Shown piece by piece: positions 3,020-9,385 of a stretch of DNA of 37,127 nt. The DNA is from Gammaproteobacteria bacterium TMED112 (GTDB lineage: Bacteria; Pseudomonadota; Gammaproteobacteria; Magnimaribacterales; TMED112): contig NHFN02000006.1 of NCBI GenBank assembly GCA_002170245.2, forward strand, positions 1 to 37,127. The letters run 5' to 3'. A model generated the notes under the pieces. That model was not told the origin of the DNA, ran no database searches, and worked only from the letters and a program-made list of their open reading frames with translations. The translations under genes and the position numbers were made by a program. Each line of letters begins with the position of its first letter. Positions within the stretch are counted from its first letter, which is position 1.

Positions 3020-3508
3020 ATGGATTTTAACTATTGGATAGAAATAGCAAATAAAGTTGTAAACATAATTACGGGACCAGCTGTCATATTTTCAGTATGG
3101 TTTCTTGTGGCACAAATTCAAACACAAATTAAGGTTGGTAAAGCAGCTTCAAGACAATCAATTGCAGAGGCACATCAAGAAGTGACTCTTGCAGGTTTAG
3201 ACCCTCTTTTGATGCGTGCGAAATTAAAACTTATTAAAAAAGAAAAACTTACAATTGATGAGGAAGTAGGTTTAAGAATACATATGACTGCAATTCTTAG
3301 AGCAAGAGAAAACCATTTTTATCAACATAAAATGGGCATGCTTGATGATGAAGAGTGGAAAACAATGAGAAAAGCTTTAGGTACACTTTTTATAAATAAC
3401 CAGCTTAACCTTGATATCTGGAACAAAAGCAAATCTACTTTTAACCCTGAGTTTGCAGAAATAGTCGATGAGGAAATTGAGATGAGGAAAGATACTTTTA
3501 AAAAATGA
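3020..3508 (+). CDS. Unknown single-TM, membrane-anchored protein
   Basis: 162 residues; I do not recognise a named family. The ATG at 3020 lies 2 bases after the transporter stop. The same frame stays open further upstream inside the transporter gene, but 3020 is preferred because the protein then begins with a normal short N-terminus and one hydrophobic segment (about residues 12-32, ITGPAVIFSVWFLVAQI). The rest is charged and mostly helical, probably cytoplasmic, with a pattern RARENHFYQHKMGMLDDEEW around residues 95-115. I have the impression of similar patterns in other marine bacterial hypothetical proteins. Its last 4 bases overlap the start of the EAL gene (ATGA), so it is translationally coupled to the c-di-GMP genes. 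Role unknown; a membrane partner of transporter or signalling proteins is only a guess. Confidence 0.8.
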   Translation: MDFNYWIEIANKVVNIITGPAVIFSVWFLVAQIQTQIKVGKAASRQSIAEAHQEVTLAGLDPLLMRAKLKLIKKEKLTIDEEVGLRIHMTAILRARENHFYQHKMGMLDDEEWKTMRKALGTLFINNQLNLDIWNKSKSTFNPEFAEIVDEEIEMRKDTFKK

Positions 3509-4593
3509 GTGATAAAGACCAATTAAAATTTATTTCTAAAGCTTTGCTTATGCATCAAAGACCTTTTTTAATAACAAAGCTTGACGGTGATGTCATGTGG
3601 ATAAATAACGCTGCTAAATATATGTTTTCTATGGAAGAAAAGGATAAGCTAGATATCCTTTTTGTTGAAAAAAAGGATCTTGATAAAGCGAAATTTGATT
3701 CTGATATTGCTGATTCTTTTGACGTTTTTTTGAAACTAAATCTTAGAGAGAAAAGTTTCTTTATGAGAGTCCTTTTGCATGTAATCCCCATGGAAAACGA
3801 AAACTATTTTCTCGTTGAATTTGTCTCAAACTCTAAAGAAAATCTTTACGCTTTAAAAACTGTAATTTCCTGTCTTGAGAACGATAGAATAGGAATGTTT
3901 TATCAAAAACAATACAAACTTACTGGTAAAAAAGAAATCACTGGCGTTGAGGCACTAATTAGGTTTTTTAGTGAGGATGGAAAAATAATACCAAACGACA
4001 AAATAATTCCATATATTGAAGGTGAAAGCATCTTTTCATTGGTAGTTACTTCCTCAATGAATCTTGTCAAAGAATTTTTTGATGCAAGAAAAGAAAAGGG
4101 GCTTGATGGTAAAACTTTATATTTTAATGTTTCTGCACACACAGTCTTACACAAAGACTTTCTACCAATATTTAAAGATTTTATTACTTCAACTGGTGTC
4201 CAAAAAGGTGACTTTGGGATAGAGGTTACCGAGACAGCTGAGCTAAATAATCTATCTTTAGCATCGCTTAGATTATCAAGCATTAAAAACCTAGGTGTAT
4301 CAATAGCCCTTGATGACTTTGGTGCTGGATATTCTGCATTAAGGTACTTAAAAGATTTACCAATTGACTTATTAAAGCTTGATAAGAGTTTTACAAATGA
4401 AATGGCTGAAACCCACAATCAAAGCCTTATTCAGATTGCCAAGCTTATGGCAGACTCTCTTTCAATGGAATTTATTTGTGAGGGACTTGAGGAAGAATGG
4501 CAAATAGAGAAGGCTATATCTTTAGGCTGTGAGAGAGGACAAGGTTATTTTCTTCATAAACCATGTAGTCTTGAAGATTTAACAAATGAATAA
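3505..4593 (+). CDS. EAL-domain cyclic-di-GMP phosphodiesterase with PAS-like N-terminus
   Basis: Predicted to hydrolyse c-di-GMP to pGpG. The 362-residue protein is cytoplasmic (no TM or signal). Residues about 10-110 have the size and strand/helix feel of a PAS-type sensor (weak call). Residues about 125-358 form the EAL domain. The catalytic set looks intact: E149-A150-L151, N208 in FNVS, E240, D270-D271 in DDFGAGYSALRYL, K291, E326 and Q346 in GQGYF. The usual YQPI entry motif reads YQKQ. It overlaps the upstream gene by 4 bases and the downstream GGDEF gene by 8 (ATGAATAA), so synthesis and breakdown enzymes for the same second messenger are coupled. Active enzyme is likely; activity is not proven by sequence. 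Confidence 0.92.
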   Translation: MSDKDQLKFISKALLMHQRPFLITKLDGDVMWINNAAKYMFSMEEKDKLDILFVEKKDLDKAKFDSDIADSFDVFLKLNLREKSFFMRVLLHVIPMENENYFLVEFVSNSKENLYALKTVISCLENDRIGMFYQKQYKLTGKKEITGVEALIRFFSEDGKIIPNDKIIPYIEGESIFSLVVTSSMNLVKEFFDARKEKGLDGKTLYFNVSAHTVLHKDFLPIFKDFITSTGVQKGDFGIEVTETAELNNLSLASLRLSSIKNLGVSIALDDFGAGYSALRYLKDLPIDLLKLDKSFTNEMAETHNQSLIQIAKLMADSLSMEFICEGLEEEWQIEKAISLGCERGQGYFLHKPCSLEDLTNE

Positions 4594-6028
4594 CAAAAAA
4601 GAAAAGATAGTACTTACTCAAATTAAACAAGATTTTACAACTCCTGTAGACGCTATTTCAGATTACATAAATTTAATTATCGATAGCTCAGATATATATG
4701 ATGAAGAAATTTCAAGTGAGTTTGAAAATATAAAAAAATCTGCAAAAACTTTGAGAATTAATTTTAATGAAGCTTTTTTAGAGTTTGCTGAGACCAAAAG
4801 AAAAACTATCAACAATGATGAAGAAGCTTCGATTTTAAGACACGATCTCAGGACTCCTCTCAATGGAATCATTGGATACAGTGAAATACTCATTGAGGAC
4901 TATGAGGATGATATTGACGAAAAGCATAATGAAGATTTATCACATATTATCGAACTAGCAAAAGAAATTGAAGCAGCAATTTCAAGATTTGTAGATTTCT
5001 TAAAAGAAGGTGCAAGCAGTCTTGAAAATGCAAATGATGGTAATGAAAGTGCTGACAATTTATTTAGCTCGCTTGGAAAAATTAAATATAAACTCGAAAT
5101 AATTGATGAAATAAAAAATGCGAAAATTCTTGTGGTTGATGACATCAAAACAAACTGTGATGTTCTTAAAAGAAGATTGGAAAGCAATGAATTTTATGTA
5201 GATATATCTATGTCTGGCAAAGAAGCTCTTGAGAAAATAAATCAACAAAAATATGATTTAATGCTTCTTGATGTACTAATGCCAGAAGTAAATGGTCTTG
5301 AAGTGCTTATTAAAGCCAGAGAGCAATATTCAGCTGATAAACTTCCCATAATTATGGTTTCCTCATTTGATGACGTAGAAAGTATATCAAAGTGCATTCA
5401 ACTCGGTGCATCTGACTATTTATCAAAGCCAGTAAACTCAACAATTCTTACACAAAAAGTTGCCTCAACGTTAGAGAGAAAAGCTCTTCGAGAAAGAGAG
5501 GAACAATTATTATCAGAACTGCATAGACAAGCAATTACAGATGAAATGACAGGTATTCCAAATAGAAGGTATGTTTTTGATATTTTGGAAAAAAGCTTTT
5601 CAGAAATTGAAAAAGAATCCAAAGAACATTTTGCAACAGCAATATTTGATATCGATCATTTCAAAAATGTAAATGATACATATGGACATGCAGCAGGTGA
5701 TGAAATTATTAGGAAAGTAAGCACGATTGCCACGTCTGTAATAAGTTCACCAGATATTTTTGGCCGAATTGGAGGAGAGGAATTTTTAGCAGTAATTTTT
5801 AATAACTCCAAAGAACATTTGCAACAAATATGCGAAAAAGTGAGATCAACTATTGAGAATAGTGAAACTTTATTTGATAATCAAAAAATACGAGTAACTA
5901 TCAGTGGTGGAGTTTGCTTTACTCATGAATCAACGAGCGTTTCAGACATGGTAAACAAAGCTGATGAGAGGCTCTATCTTGCTAAAAAAAATGGTAGAAA
6001 CAAATTTTATTTAAATGAGGGCGAATAA
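4586..6028 (+). CDS. DHp-like / REC / GGDEF protein (probable phosphorelay-controlled diguanylate cyclase)
   Basis: 480 residues, cytoplasmic. Order: a degenerate DHp-like segment (about 10-62, QDFTTPVDAISDY), a second DHp/HisKA-like segment with histidine H86 (RHDLRTPLNGIIGYSE, about 80-140), a REC domain (about 178-295; D185-D186, phospho-acceptor D229, K281), then GGDEF (about 315-478) with GGEEF at 396-400. No HATPase domain is present, so the histidine would have to be phosphorylated by another kinase or act as a phosphotransfer site. The inhibitory RxxD I-site position reads SSPD (387-390), so product inhibition may be absent. Predicted to make c-di-GMP. It overlaps the EAL gene by 8 bases and the next REC gene by 1. 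The domain order is unusual; the cyclase and REC calls are firm, the phosphorelay role is inference. Confidence 0.93.
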   Translation: MNNKKEKIVLTQIKQDFTTPVDAISDYINLIIDSSDIYDEEISSEFENIKKSAKTLRINFNEAFLEFAETKRKTINNDEEASILRHDLRTPLNGIIGYSEILIEDYEDDIDEKHNEDLSHIIELAKEIEAAISRFVDFLKEGASSLENANDGNESADNLFSSLGKIKYKLEIIDEIKNAKILVVDDIKTNCDVLKRRLESNEFYVDISMSGKEALEKINQQKYDLMLLDVLMPEVNGLEVLIKAREQYSADKLPIIMVSSFDDVESISKCIQLGASDYLSKPVNSTILTQKVASTLERKALREREEQLLSELHRQAITDEMTGIPNRRYVFDILEKSFSEIEKESKEHFATAIFDIDHFKNVNDTYGHAAGDEIIRKVSTIATSVISSPDIFGRIGGEEFLAVIFNNSKEHLQQICEKVRSTIENSETLFDNQKIRVTISGGVCFTHESTSVSDMVNKADERLYLAKKNGRNKFYLNEGE

Positions 6029-6387
6029 TGGCTTATATTCTGATTGTTGAAGACAATGAAATGAACAGAGATATGTTGGGAAGAAGATTAGAACGAAGAG
6101 GTTTTGAAATAGACTTTGCACTTGATGGACAAGAAGGTCTTGATAAGATGAGGGAAAGAAAACCAGATTTAGTTTTAATGGATATGGGCTTGCCCGTATT
6201 AGATGGTTGGCAGGCAACGACACAAGCAAAAGAAGATGCAGACTTGAAAGAAATTCCAATAATAGCACTTACAGCGCATGCTCTCGAAACTGATAGACAA
6301 AAAGCTCTCGCTGCGGGCGCTGATGATTTTGATACAAAACCTGTCGACATTAAAAGACTTCTAGAAAAAATAGGTAATTTTATTTAG
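6028..6387 (+). CDS. Single-domain response regulator (CheY/DivK-like REC)
   Basis: 119 residues that consist of one receiver domain and nothing else: acidic pair E8-D9, phospho-acceptor D52 in LVLMDMGLP, T82 and K104 in DTKPVD. Starts of this form (YILIVEDNEMNRDML) are typical of stand-alone REC proteins acting as phosphate shuttles or binding a partner protein. Its ATG shares one base with the preceding stop (TAATG). Its last 8 bases overlap, tail to tail, the end of the minus-strand hybrid kinase gene. Context suggests it relays phosphate between that kinase and the DHp/REC/GGDEF protein. That wiring is inferred from position only. Confidence 0.93.
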   Translation: MAYILIVEDNEMNRDMLGRRLERRGFEIDFALDGQEGLDKMRERKPDLVLMDMGLPVLDGWQATTQAKEDADLKEIPIIALTAHALETDRQKALAAGADDFDTKPVDIKRLLEKIGNFI

Positions 6388-9385
6388 AATCTTCTCTCTT
6401 TAGTATCTGGTTTACCTCTTCAACCAAGGTATCAACTTTGGACTCTTTTTTAACAATACCTTCTGTAAATCTGCCTAACATTTTTTCCTCAACGGCAGTA
6501 ATATCCTTTCCGGAAAAAACTACAATAGGAATTTTTATTCCATCTTCTTGTGTTTTTTCAATGAATTCAAAACCATCCATTCTCGGCATATCTAAATCTA
6601 AGACGATAAGATCTGGTTTTTCTTTCAATCTTTCTAAAGCATCTTCTCCATTTTTTGCATCAATTGACATATACCCTTCATTCTTAAGGATTTTATTTAA
6701 TAAATCTCTAGTGTTTTCATCATCATCGACTATTAGAACTTTTTGATTTTTTTCGGTTATGTACCTCTTTACAATATTAATAAAAAACGTTCTATCAATT
6801 GGTTTTTTCATGTAATCATCAGCTCCAAGTGAATTTGCCATACTCTCCTCATTCAAAACAGAAGTGATTACGACTGGAACACTCTTTAATTTTTTGTCTT
6901 TTTTAAGTTCTTTTAAAACAGACCAGCCATCTCGACCAGGCATAAGAACATCAAGCAATATTAATTTAGGTAAAAATTTTCTAGCTTGTTCAATTCCTTC
7001 ATCACCGTCAAAACAGCTGTAAATTGTGTGTCCCTCTTTTTTTATTGCTCTTTTAACTACGTCATGAGTAGTTTTATCATCATCAATTAGAAGAATATAA
7101 TCTTCATCTTTTTTAATTTCAGGATTTTCGAAATTTTCATCAGCTACAGTTTCTTCATCTTGAGAAATTCTTGGGACGAAGATACTAAAAGTACTCCCTT
7201 CTCCAACTTTACTTGTGACTTCAACTCCACCACCCATCATTTCTGCAAAATGTTTTGATATTGATAAACCTAACCCGGTACCTCCATATTTTGCGCTAGT
7301 AGATCTTTCAGCTTGAGTATAAGTATCGAAAAGTTTTCCAAGCTGCTCTTCTGACATACCGATACCTGTATCTTTAATGTCAAAGTTTACAAATTCTTTA
7401 CCATCTATTTCTTTTGAATTAATCAACAACGCAACTTGACCGTTTTCGGTAAACTTAAAGGCATTACTTAAAAAATTTACTACGCATTGTCTTAGTTTTG
7501 TCTCATCGCTGGTCATATCGCCACCAATAGTATTTTTAATAATAAATTCATTATTGTTCTTAGACGCAAGCGGGTTTGATACATCTTTAATTGTTTCTAT
7601 CATGGTATCTATATTGAATGGAGTGAAATACATATCCATCTTGCCTGCTTCAATCTTTGATAGATCTAATACATTATTGATTAAGGAAAGCAGGTGTTTG
7701 CTTGAATTAGTTATTCTCTTGAGATCAGGAATCATATCTTCATTACCAAGATCTTCACAATCTTCAAGAAGCATTTCACTATACCCTATGATAGCGTTCA
7801 GAGGTGTTCTAAGCTCGTGAGACATGTTTGCAAAAAATCTTGATTTTGCAGAACTAGCTTCCCTTGCTTCATCTCTAGCTGTAGCCATTTCTTTAGTTTT
7901 TAGATCAATAAGTGCGTTGACCTCATCTGACATTCTTGAAAATGCAAGTTCCATCATTTCAACTGATGCTTCTTCAGCATTTTCATCAGAAGTTTCATTT
8001 ACGAGGTTCTTCATATTCTGTACATCTTTTTGAATTAAAACTTTTGCATCTCCTTCAAGTTTTTCTGAGAGAACACTCATTTTCTTTATAATTACCTCGT
8101 CTCTTTGTTTTCTTCTTTCAGCTCTATCTTTTCGAACTGAATCCATCTCTAACAAATGATTTCTATATCGACCCAATGCATTAGATAGTTGACCCACTTC
8201 ATTTGTTTCCGAAGAAAGGAAACCTTTATTTGAAGGTAATTTTTTCTTAGTATCGCCTTTTGTTAATGCCTCTAACACTTCTATTGCTTGAGCTATTCTA
8301 TTGAATGCGCCATCTTGCACCCACCATATTGCAAGCACAATTAGCAGGATTACTCCAAATGTGAAAATTATCGAATTTAGAGTTGAATCTCTTAATTCTT
8401 TTAAATCATTAGCAACATTTTTAATAACAAAGAAGAGCGCAAAATCTGGGTTAACTGTTGATGCAACTGGAACTGATGTCAGTGATAAACCAAGAGCTTC
8501 AAAATTTTTTGAATCCATATTTTCTAAACCATTCTTAAGAATGTCTTTTTTTATGTAATCAAAGCTAATATTTTTTATACCAAGTGAATCTTGAGAGAAT
8601 TCATCTGAAAAAACGGCATCAATAATTTTATTCTGGCTTACAATTCCGGTACGTACACCTAAATCACTTTCAAATATTGTCATTGACTGCCTTAAATCTC
8701 TGCCAAGAATAACAGTACCTAAAAGTTTATCCGTATTAAATCCAAACTCATTTTTTAAATAAACAGGAAAAGCTACTATTTGATGAAGGTTAATATTGCC
8801 TGACTTTTCTTCTGCATAAATAACTTCATTCGTAACGCTCATTCTGGTTTTAATTTTTTCTAAAAAAGTCTCAGTAGAATCATCTCTTAGGAAATTTAAT
8901 TTGTTACTTTCACCACAAACGTCAATAGAATTGCCAACGTCAGCCCAGTCGAAAGCATAGAGACAAGTTAGCTCTGAATTCTTCTCATTGAATAATTTAA
9001 TAAAGCTTATATTTCCTTCATCAATTTCATCTAAAAACATTTCATCAATAAGAATGAATAGGTCGCCATTTATTTCATTATCAAAGGCTTCTATAAGCGC
9101 ATTTGCATAATCAAAGCCATCGATACCTATTTCAGTAAATAAACTAATCTCAACATAAGGGTTCCAATATTGTTCACCTTTTTCACCATTTGGTCCCCAA
9201 GAATTCATATTCGAAAAACTATTATCAATGGATTGAACCCAAGCAGATTCAACAATGCTTGTATATTGGCTGTTTGATGATTTTTCTTGAATATTCTGAT
9301 TTTGAACATTCATAAAAAGAAGAATGCCCGCAATAATGATATTACCTATCAGACCAAATATAAGGATTTGGGTTCTTACAAGCAT
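6380..9385 (-). CDS. Membrane hybrid sensor histidine kinase with two C-terminal REC domains
   Basis: 1001 residues. TM1 (about 4-26) and TM2 (about 336-356) enclose a periplasmic sensor region of about 310 residues of unrecognised, possibly Cache-like type with two Cys near 141 and 157. Then come a HAMP-like linker (357-413), a coiled coil (about 415-515), HisKA with H523 in FFANMSHELRTPLN, HATPase with N641, DTGIGM (672-677) and GGTGLGL (701-707), REC1 (about 762-875, D812) and REC2 (about 882-996, D930). All catalytic residues are present. The gene follows the TonB-like gene by 12 bases on the minus strand and meets the plus-strand REC gene with an 8-base overlap of ends. Probable input kinase for the c-di-GMP block; the ligand is unknown. 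Confidence 0.95.
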   Translation of the reverse strand: MLVRTQILIFGLIGNIIIAGILLFMNVQNQNIQEKSSNSQYTSIVESAWVQSIDNSFSNMNSWGPNGEKGEQYWNPYVEISLFTEIGIDGFDYANALIEAFDNEINGDLFILIDEMFLDEIDEGNISFIKLFNEKNSELTCLYAFDWADVGNSIDVCGESNKLNFLRDDSTETFLEKIKTRMSVTNEVIYAEEKSGNINLHQIVAFPVYLKNEFGFNTDKLLGTVILGRDLRQSMTIFESDLGVRTGIVSQNKIIDAVFSDEFSQDSLGIKNISFDYIKKDILKNGLENMDSKNFEALGLSLTSVPVASTVNPDFALFFVIKNVANDLKELRDSTLNSIIFTFGVILLIVLAIWWVQDGAFNRIAQAIEVLEALTKGDTKKKLPSNKGFLSSETNEVGQLSNALGRYRNHLLEMDSVRKDRAERRKQRDEVIIKKMSVLSEKLEGDAKVLIQKDVQNMKNLVNETSDENAEEASVEMMELAFSRMSDEVNALIDLKTKEMATARDEAREASSAKSRFFANMSHELRTPLNAIIGYSEMLLEDCEDLGNEDMIPDLKRITNSSKHLLSLINNVLDLSKIEAGKMDMYFTPFNIDTMIETIKDVSNPLASKNNNEFIIKNTIGGDMTSDETKLRQCVVNFLSNAFKFTENGQVALLINSKEIDGKEFVNFDIKDTGIGMSEEQLGKLFDTYTQAERSTSAKYGGTGLGLSISKHFAEMMGGGVEVTSKVGEGSTFSIFVPRISQDEETVADENFENPEIKKDEDYILLIDDDKTTHDVVKRAIKKEGHTIYSCFDGDEGIEQARKFLPKLILLDVLMPGRDGWSVLKELKKDKKLKSVPVVITSVLNEESMANSLGADDYMKKPIDRTFFINIVKRYITEKNQKVLIVDDDENTRDLLNKILKNEGYMSIDAKNGEDALERLKEKPDLIVLDLDMPRMDGFEFIEKTQEDGIKIPIVVFSGKDITAVEEKMLGRFTEGIVKKESKVDTLVEEVNQILKREDSK

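Follow-up and report, generated by a model that had tools for sequence, protein, structure and literature searches.

A tandem DHp module with a degenerate first copy in a SAR86 REC-GGDEF protein, a probable built-in histidine phosphotransferase

A 480 amino acid REC-GGDEF protein of a SAR86 ocean bacterium begins with two DHp-like helical hairpins in a single chain, the first of which has glutamine in place of the phospho-histidine. The N-terminal 145 residues probably act as an asymmetric one-chain DHp bundle, a built-in histidine phosphotransferase which would relay phosphate from the neighbouring kinase and receiver proteins via His86 to Asp229 of the same protein. Whether the module represents a new class of phosphotransfer domain we regard as evenly balanced; such a class would be a single-chain asymmetric DHp pseudo-dimer, found across Proteobacteria, which forms a cis His-to-Asp relay with the REC domain of a second-messenger enzyme, is stacked two or three times in some lineages and has become a phosphate-free regulator in one.

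Gene, domains and neighbouring genes

The window, meaning the whole stretch of 37,127 nucleotides that was analyzed (contig NHFN02000006.1, positions 1 to 37,127), comes from Gammaproteobacteria bacterium TMED112, a member of SAR86 whose nearest named relatives are SAR86 cluster records. The gene of interest lies on the plus strand at 4586..6028, and its reading frame together with a Pfam scan confirmed the gene, the DHp-DHp-REC-GGDEF domain order and the residue numbers Q15, H86 and D229 given in the first-pass annotation. Copy 1 is a degenerate DHp hairpin of residues 2-69 (4589..4792, plus strand; helices 2-34 and 40-69), delimited by an AlphaFold2 model, its motif and hhalign, in which Gln15 (codon 4628-4630) occupies the phospho-His site. 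Copy 2, a DHp hairpin of residues 78-141 (4817..5008, plus strand) assigned by Pfam HisKA and the invariant H86, carries that histidine (codon 4841-4843) within the motif RH(D/N)LRTPLN. A flexible linker of residues 142-179 (5009..5122, plus strand), of which 147-171 have a pLDDT <50 in AlphaFold2, leads from the bundle to the REC domain, residues 180-292 (5123..5461, plus strand; Pfam Response_reg 2e-26, matched over 181-292), where Asp229 (codon 5270-5272) is the invariant phospho-acceptor. The full-length AlphaFold2 model contains a long REC alpha5/linker helix of 33 residues (285-317; 5438..5536, plus strand), and this modelled helix is as expected of the dimerisation coiled coil of a diguanylate cyclase.

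The GGDEF domain, residues 316-473 (5531..6004, plus strand; Pfam GGDEF 2.1e-39), has an intact GGEEF at 396-400 and, as read from the sequence (SSPDIFGRIGGEEF), is without an RxxD inhibitory site. At the position of that site (residues 385-401, window 5738-5790) the protein has SSPD, and in orthologues the Asp position is mostly N. The protein has both the REC phospho-Asp and the GG(D/E)EF motif by which a REC-GGDEF diguanylate cyclase is recognized. Pfam scanning found no HATPase_c domain in the 480-residue chain, which excludes it from the histidine kinases, and no match to Hpt (PF01627).

Immediately upstream, and overlapping the start of the gene, is a gene for an EAL-domain protein (3505..4593, plus strand; Pfam EAL 3.4e-43) which is likely a c-di-GMP phosphodiesterase; with the RxxD product-inhibition site missing, feedback may rest with this neighbour. 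Downstream lie a stand-alone single-domain REC protein of 119 amino acids (6028..6387, plus strand; Pfam Response_reg 2e-27) and a convergent gene for a hybrid histidine kinase of 1001 amino acids with the Pfam order HisKA-HATPase-REC-REC (6380..9385, minus strand). The last two genes overlap tail-to-tail by 8 bases (window 6380-6387).

Relationship of the two copies and predicted fold

A tandem DHp-like repeat without an ATPase domain had been proposed from an ungapped alignment of residues 15-33 with residues 86-104. As a comparison within a single sequence this alignment is at chance level (6/19 identities) and was rejected as proof of a repeat; the best ungapped pair of 19-mers within residues 1-145 has 7 identities, with p=0.44 against shuffles. 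The register itself was upheld by hhalign, which aligned copy-1 and copy-2 profiles built from SAR86 sequences only with Q15 opposite H86 (P=3.3e-5; score 28.7, while 100 column-shuffled controls reached 17.0 at most). When the profiles were widened with 42 relatives from outside SAR86 the alignment reached P=1.5e-20 with a probability of 99.3%, and a score of 90.6 where the null controls did not exceed 15.9, which bore out the proposed repeat. Judged from these profiles, copies 1 and 2 are homologous at the level of the family.

Searches with Pfam HisKA (PF00512) gave different outcomes for the two halves. Copy 2 was matched over residues 79-140 (E=6.5e-13; 49.0 bits, the cut-off being 26.9), while the first 76 residues of the window protein gave no match and HisKA was not among the families most matched by copy 1 across 30 SAR86 copies. 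In a relative at locus L253, copy 1 has Q at the His site and passes the HisKA cut-off (E=2.4e-6, 27.9 bits against 26.9), and copy 1 of L247 (1.5e-5) and of L272 (1.4e-5) falls just below it. When 369 gammaproteobacterial genomes were searched with the copy-1 profile, its own orthologues were recovered together with weaker matches in other proteins; Pfam scanning of ten of the latter identified nine HisKA-HATPase kinases and, as the tenth, a tandem-HisKA-REC-cyclase protein (L170). Weak, scattered Pfam hits of copy 1 to helical families unrelated to HisKA (best DUF5344, 2.3e-5, in 13/30 members) were treated as coiled-coil noise.

AlphaFold2, run on residues 1-178 with 30 sequences, returned four helices at 2-34, 40-69, 78-105 and 112-141 (pLDDT 83-98 in most blocks, pTM 0.73), and the full-length model contained the same four helices plus REC. 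Residues 1-145 are thus predicted with high confidence to form a four-helix bundle within one chain, as the first-pass annotation had anticipated. That annotation was to be abandoned if no bundle was predicted or if the HisKA profile failed for both halves; a bundle is predicted, and the profile fails for copy 1 only. Residues 1-145 align structurally to monomeric four-helix bundles with Z up to 14, and to single-chain ROP with Z 12.4 (2.2 A over 114 residues), alignments which show shape and not kinship, the fold being too common. Foldseek/VIA-align searches with the bundle model found only generic four-helix bundles, none at E<=0.001, and no DHp, Spo0B or ChpT chains; the latter are expected to be missing because their bundles consist of two chains, and their absence proves nothing.

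Conservation and distribution

In all 43 SAR86 orthologues that were aligned, Gln15, His86 and Asp229 are unchanged; the replacement of the copy-1 histidine by glutamine, first noticed in one sequence, extends to every one of these. The copy-1 motif QIKQ(D/E)F..P..AI..Y is invariant or nearly so, with an invariant core of Q12, I13, K14, Q15, F17, P20, A23 and Y27, and in copy 2 the invariant positions are L84, R85, H86, L88, R89, T90, P91, L92 and N93. Among 42 relatives outside SAR86 the copy-2 His is kept in 41 and the REC Asp in 41, and the copy-1 His site is occupied by Q in 15, H in 9, Y in 6, E in 3 and other residues in the remainder. Selection, to judge from these alignments, maintains a single His and a single Asp in each unit. 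Most members have H(D/N)LRTP in the module, compared to HELRTP in the partner kinases.

The protein is present in 79/203 genomes of the order. With a threshold of E<=1e-5, matches to the N-terminal part of the protein were confined to these 79 of the 203, the second match being the neighbouring kinase, and SAR86 genomes without the protein are also without a matching kinase. The two come and go together, a pattern that physical linkage alone would favour. At all 20 SAR86 loci that were read the order is EAL, module-GGDEF and single-domain REC, with the hybrid kinase convergent. No other GGDEF protein occurs in the 21 family genomes: 10 of the 21, among them the four with a completeness of 90% or more, have exactly one GGDEF protein, at this locus. 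In the family, whose genomes are ~1 Mb in size, the module would consequently gate all c-di-GMP made. Neither an Hpt domain nor a PilZ domain was found in the 21 family genomes in searches for which control genomes were positive.

Outside SAR86 the DHp-DHp-REC module is also found in distantly related alpha- and gammaproteobacteria, again next to homologous REC and kinase genes, and in further relatives from other proteobacteria. Alphaproteobacterial relatives include plasmids of Sinorhizobium, Rhizobium and Phyllobacterium; the S. meliloti pSymB protein U8C39_13985 has the same module and is annotated only as a cyclase. In one gammaproteobacterial family 34/43 genomes gave a match, some of these not covering the bundle. 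The outputs of the relatives are class III cyclases and, once, a SpoIIE phosphatase; in this last case (L192:1474-3177) the copy-1 His is retained. A single-domain REC is found near the module at most of the non-SAR86 loci and a homologous hybrid kinase at many, and the two partner kinases that were scanned both have the HisKA-HATPase-REC-REC order. Fusion of the unit to REC-GGDEF had been put forward as new. The module is in fact common to REC-cyclase proteins across Proteobacteria, and it is the REC-GGDEF fusion that seems to be confined to SAR86, no tandem module with GGDEF having been found outside SAR86 among the best 80 relatives, within the limits of a pattern-based scan.

Four relatives have stacked DHp-pair units before one REC-cyclase (L255:8713-10920, L256:810-2978, L270:1498-4233 and L271:466-3072), two with two tandem units and two with three. 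The gammaproteobacterial locus L186 encodes a kinase, a REC protein and a HisKA-HisKA-REC-class III cyclase protein. In this last protein (L186:7019-8650) both DHp His sites are lost (S, F), as is the REC Asp (S), while kinase, single-domain REC and cyclase are retained; from its sequence it is a possible phosphate-free version. A periplasmic-binding-protein-like gene (L186:2422-3660) precedes the kinase in this cluster, and its product may be the sensor subunit of the kinase.

Candidate relay, alternative explanations and known systems

The computations show the duplication, the predicted fold, the conserved residues and partners and the lack of ATPase and Hpt domains, while the phosphorylation of His86, the identity of the donor receiver, the direction of flow and the chemistry belong to the scheme that we infer from them. 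A HisKA hairpin was duplicated without its ATPase domain, which would have given a pseudo-DHp (Gln15) and a competent DHp (His86). The neighbouring hybrid kinase would phosphorylate a receiver, either its own REC domains, the 119 amino acid single-domain REC, or both, from which the phosphate would move to His86 and then to Asp229 of the REC domain in the same protein. Phosphorylation of REC would rearrange the long helix and so bring the two GGDEF domains of the dimer into contact for the synthesis of c-di-GMP, and with the kinase off the bundle could drain Asp229 by reverse flow. The pseudo-copy would complete the bundle with no need for a second chain, leaving dimerisation of the protein to REC/alpha5. 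Since no Hpt domain was found in the SAR86 family, a kinase ending in REC-REC needs another histidine carrier, and the module most likely serves as a phosphotransferase like Spo0B, ChpT or PhyT that is joined to the protein it acts on. Both the absence of Hpt and the kinase and single-domain REC neighbours favour this role, and the invariant His86 with the lost copy-1 His fits one phospho-His per intramolecular DHp bundle. Counting against the relay, the kinase could phosphorylate both RECs directly and leave the bundle as a dock or a phosphatase, and the copy-1 His is also retained in 9/42 relatives. A comparison of the kinase with helix 1 of the module gave no covariation signal (identity of 0.57 for cognate against 0.56 for noncognate pairs).

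The main rival, which we consider unlikely, is that the bundle is a docking sensor of the DivL kind which binds the phosphorylated single-domain REC, or the kinase REC, on its DHp surface and carries no phosphate, binding alone altering REC-GGDEF activity. The DHp of DivL has a Tyr where the His would be; it binds DivK~P, and its signalling involves no phosphotransfer (PMC4211667). Next to the module a single-domain REC is strongly conserved, and the His-less copy 1 is conserved over its docking helix. This explanation is strengthened by the L186 protein, which is without any phospho-residue, yet kinase, REC and bundle are retained, indicating that the bundle can persist without phosphotransfer. 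However, docking alone has no need of His86 and its flanking RH(D/N)LRTP, which are invariant in SAR86 (the His being kept in nearly all other relatives as well), and DivL itself lost its His. Asp229 is kept here as strictly as His86.

HisKA domains have an established phosphatase motif of the HDxxT type, and a built-in phosphatase, in which the DHp bundle dephosphorylates Asp229 or the single-domain REC by means of the Thr at His+4 and so sets the off-rate of the cyclase, appears improbable as an account of the module. T or N is present at His+4 in all SAR86 members and in 41/42 non-SAR86 relatives, and such an activity was suggested for archaeal HisKA-without-HATPase proteins (PMC5847659). 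The classical HisKA phosphatase reaction does not strictly depend on the His, which is nevertheless invariant here, and where such a reaction is efficient the ATPase domain usually takes part as well; a phosphatase activity may coexist with the main one as a secondary function. It is very improbable that the module is a mere structural bundle, left over from a hybrid kinase that degenerated and retained for spacing or dimerisation, as the loss of the copy-1 His and of the ATPase domain might indicate. The strong purifying selection on both H-boxes (Q12, I13, K14, Q15, F17 and P20; R85, H86, L88, R89, T90 and P91), the spread over distant Proteobacteria with different outputs and the presence of two or three stacked units in certain relatives all argue against it.

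The phosphotransferase reading may be compared with several described systems. The Spo0F-Spo0B-Spo0A phosphorelay of Bacillus is a well-established case. Like Spo0B, the module is predicted to be a DHp four-helix bundle with a phospho-His and no kinase activity, preceded in the relay by a single-domain REC and followed by an output regulator. Spo0B itself forms homodimers, which have two His, and it includes a C-terminal domain, whereas the module has two hairpins in one chain, one of them His-less, no C-terminal domain, and is fused to the target REC. ChpT of Caulobacter is similar in being a class I DHp bundle which passes on the phosphate of a hybrid kinase, a function that the module would share, and it was found weakly, in register, when the copy-1 profile was compared with the PDB (E=0.15). 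ChpT forms homodimers and contains a degenerate Bergerat domain (PMC3433190), while in the module a REC domain follows the bundle and Pfam gave no match to a degenerate Bergerat domain. In the PhyT-SdrG-PhyR relay of Sphingomonas phosphate passes from kinase to single-domain REC, His carrier and output REC (PMC5898713); the module and its neighbours have the same list of parts as Spo0F/Spo0B/Spo0A and SdrG/PhyT/PhyR (PMC5898713). PhyT is a separate membrane protein, whereas here carrier and target are one chain, the domains of which were found without a predicted membrane part. With DivL the module shares a His-less HisKA that is the partner of a single-domain REC, but DivL retains an ATPase-like domain and is without a REC or a cyclase domain, and the second copy of the module keeps its His.

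The core of REC, long helix and GGDEF is that of cyclases of the PleD/DgcR/WspR type, to which the tandem DHp is added at the N terminus. DgcR is switched by a coiled coil which the alpha5/linker helix (285-317) resembles (PMC8041772). The protein scored below the NCBIfam cut-offs for PleD (232.6 against 474) and DgcR (176.4 against 500), and among the best NCBIfam models listed none covers the N-terminal region. HisKA-without-HATPase proteins and DHp-fold phosphotransferases are already known; no description of a tandem or pseudo-DHp module was found in open-access full texts, and within that scope the single-chain tandem DHp, with its first copy usually degenerate and fused to REC and an enzyme, is apparently new. 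The relay, if correct, would show the conversion of a kinase DHp homodimer into a one-chain phosphotransferase wired straight to its target, and the module would stand in for Hpt domains where genomes yielded none. It would also be a natural system in which to study the contribution made by one half of a DHp dimer when that half has no histidine. The rhizobial REC-adenylate/guanylate cyclases have the same DHp-DHp-REC module with a single-domain REC and a hybrid kinase adjoining. These cyclases (e.g. U8C39_13985) have Q in copy 1 and H in copy 2 as in SAR86, with a class III cyclase as output instead, and on their plasmids the module, unnamed to date, is genetically testable.
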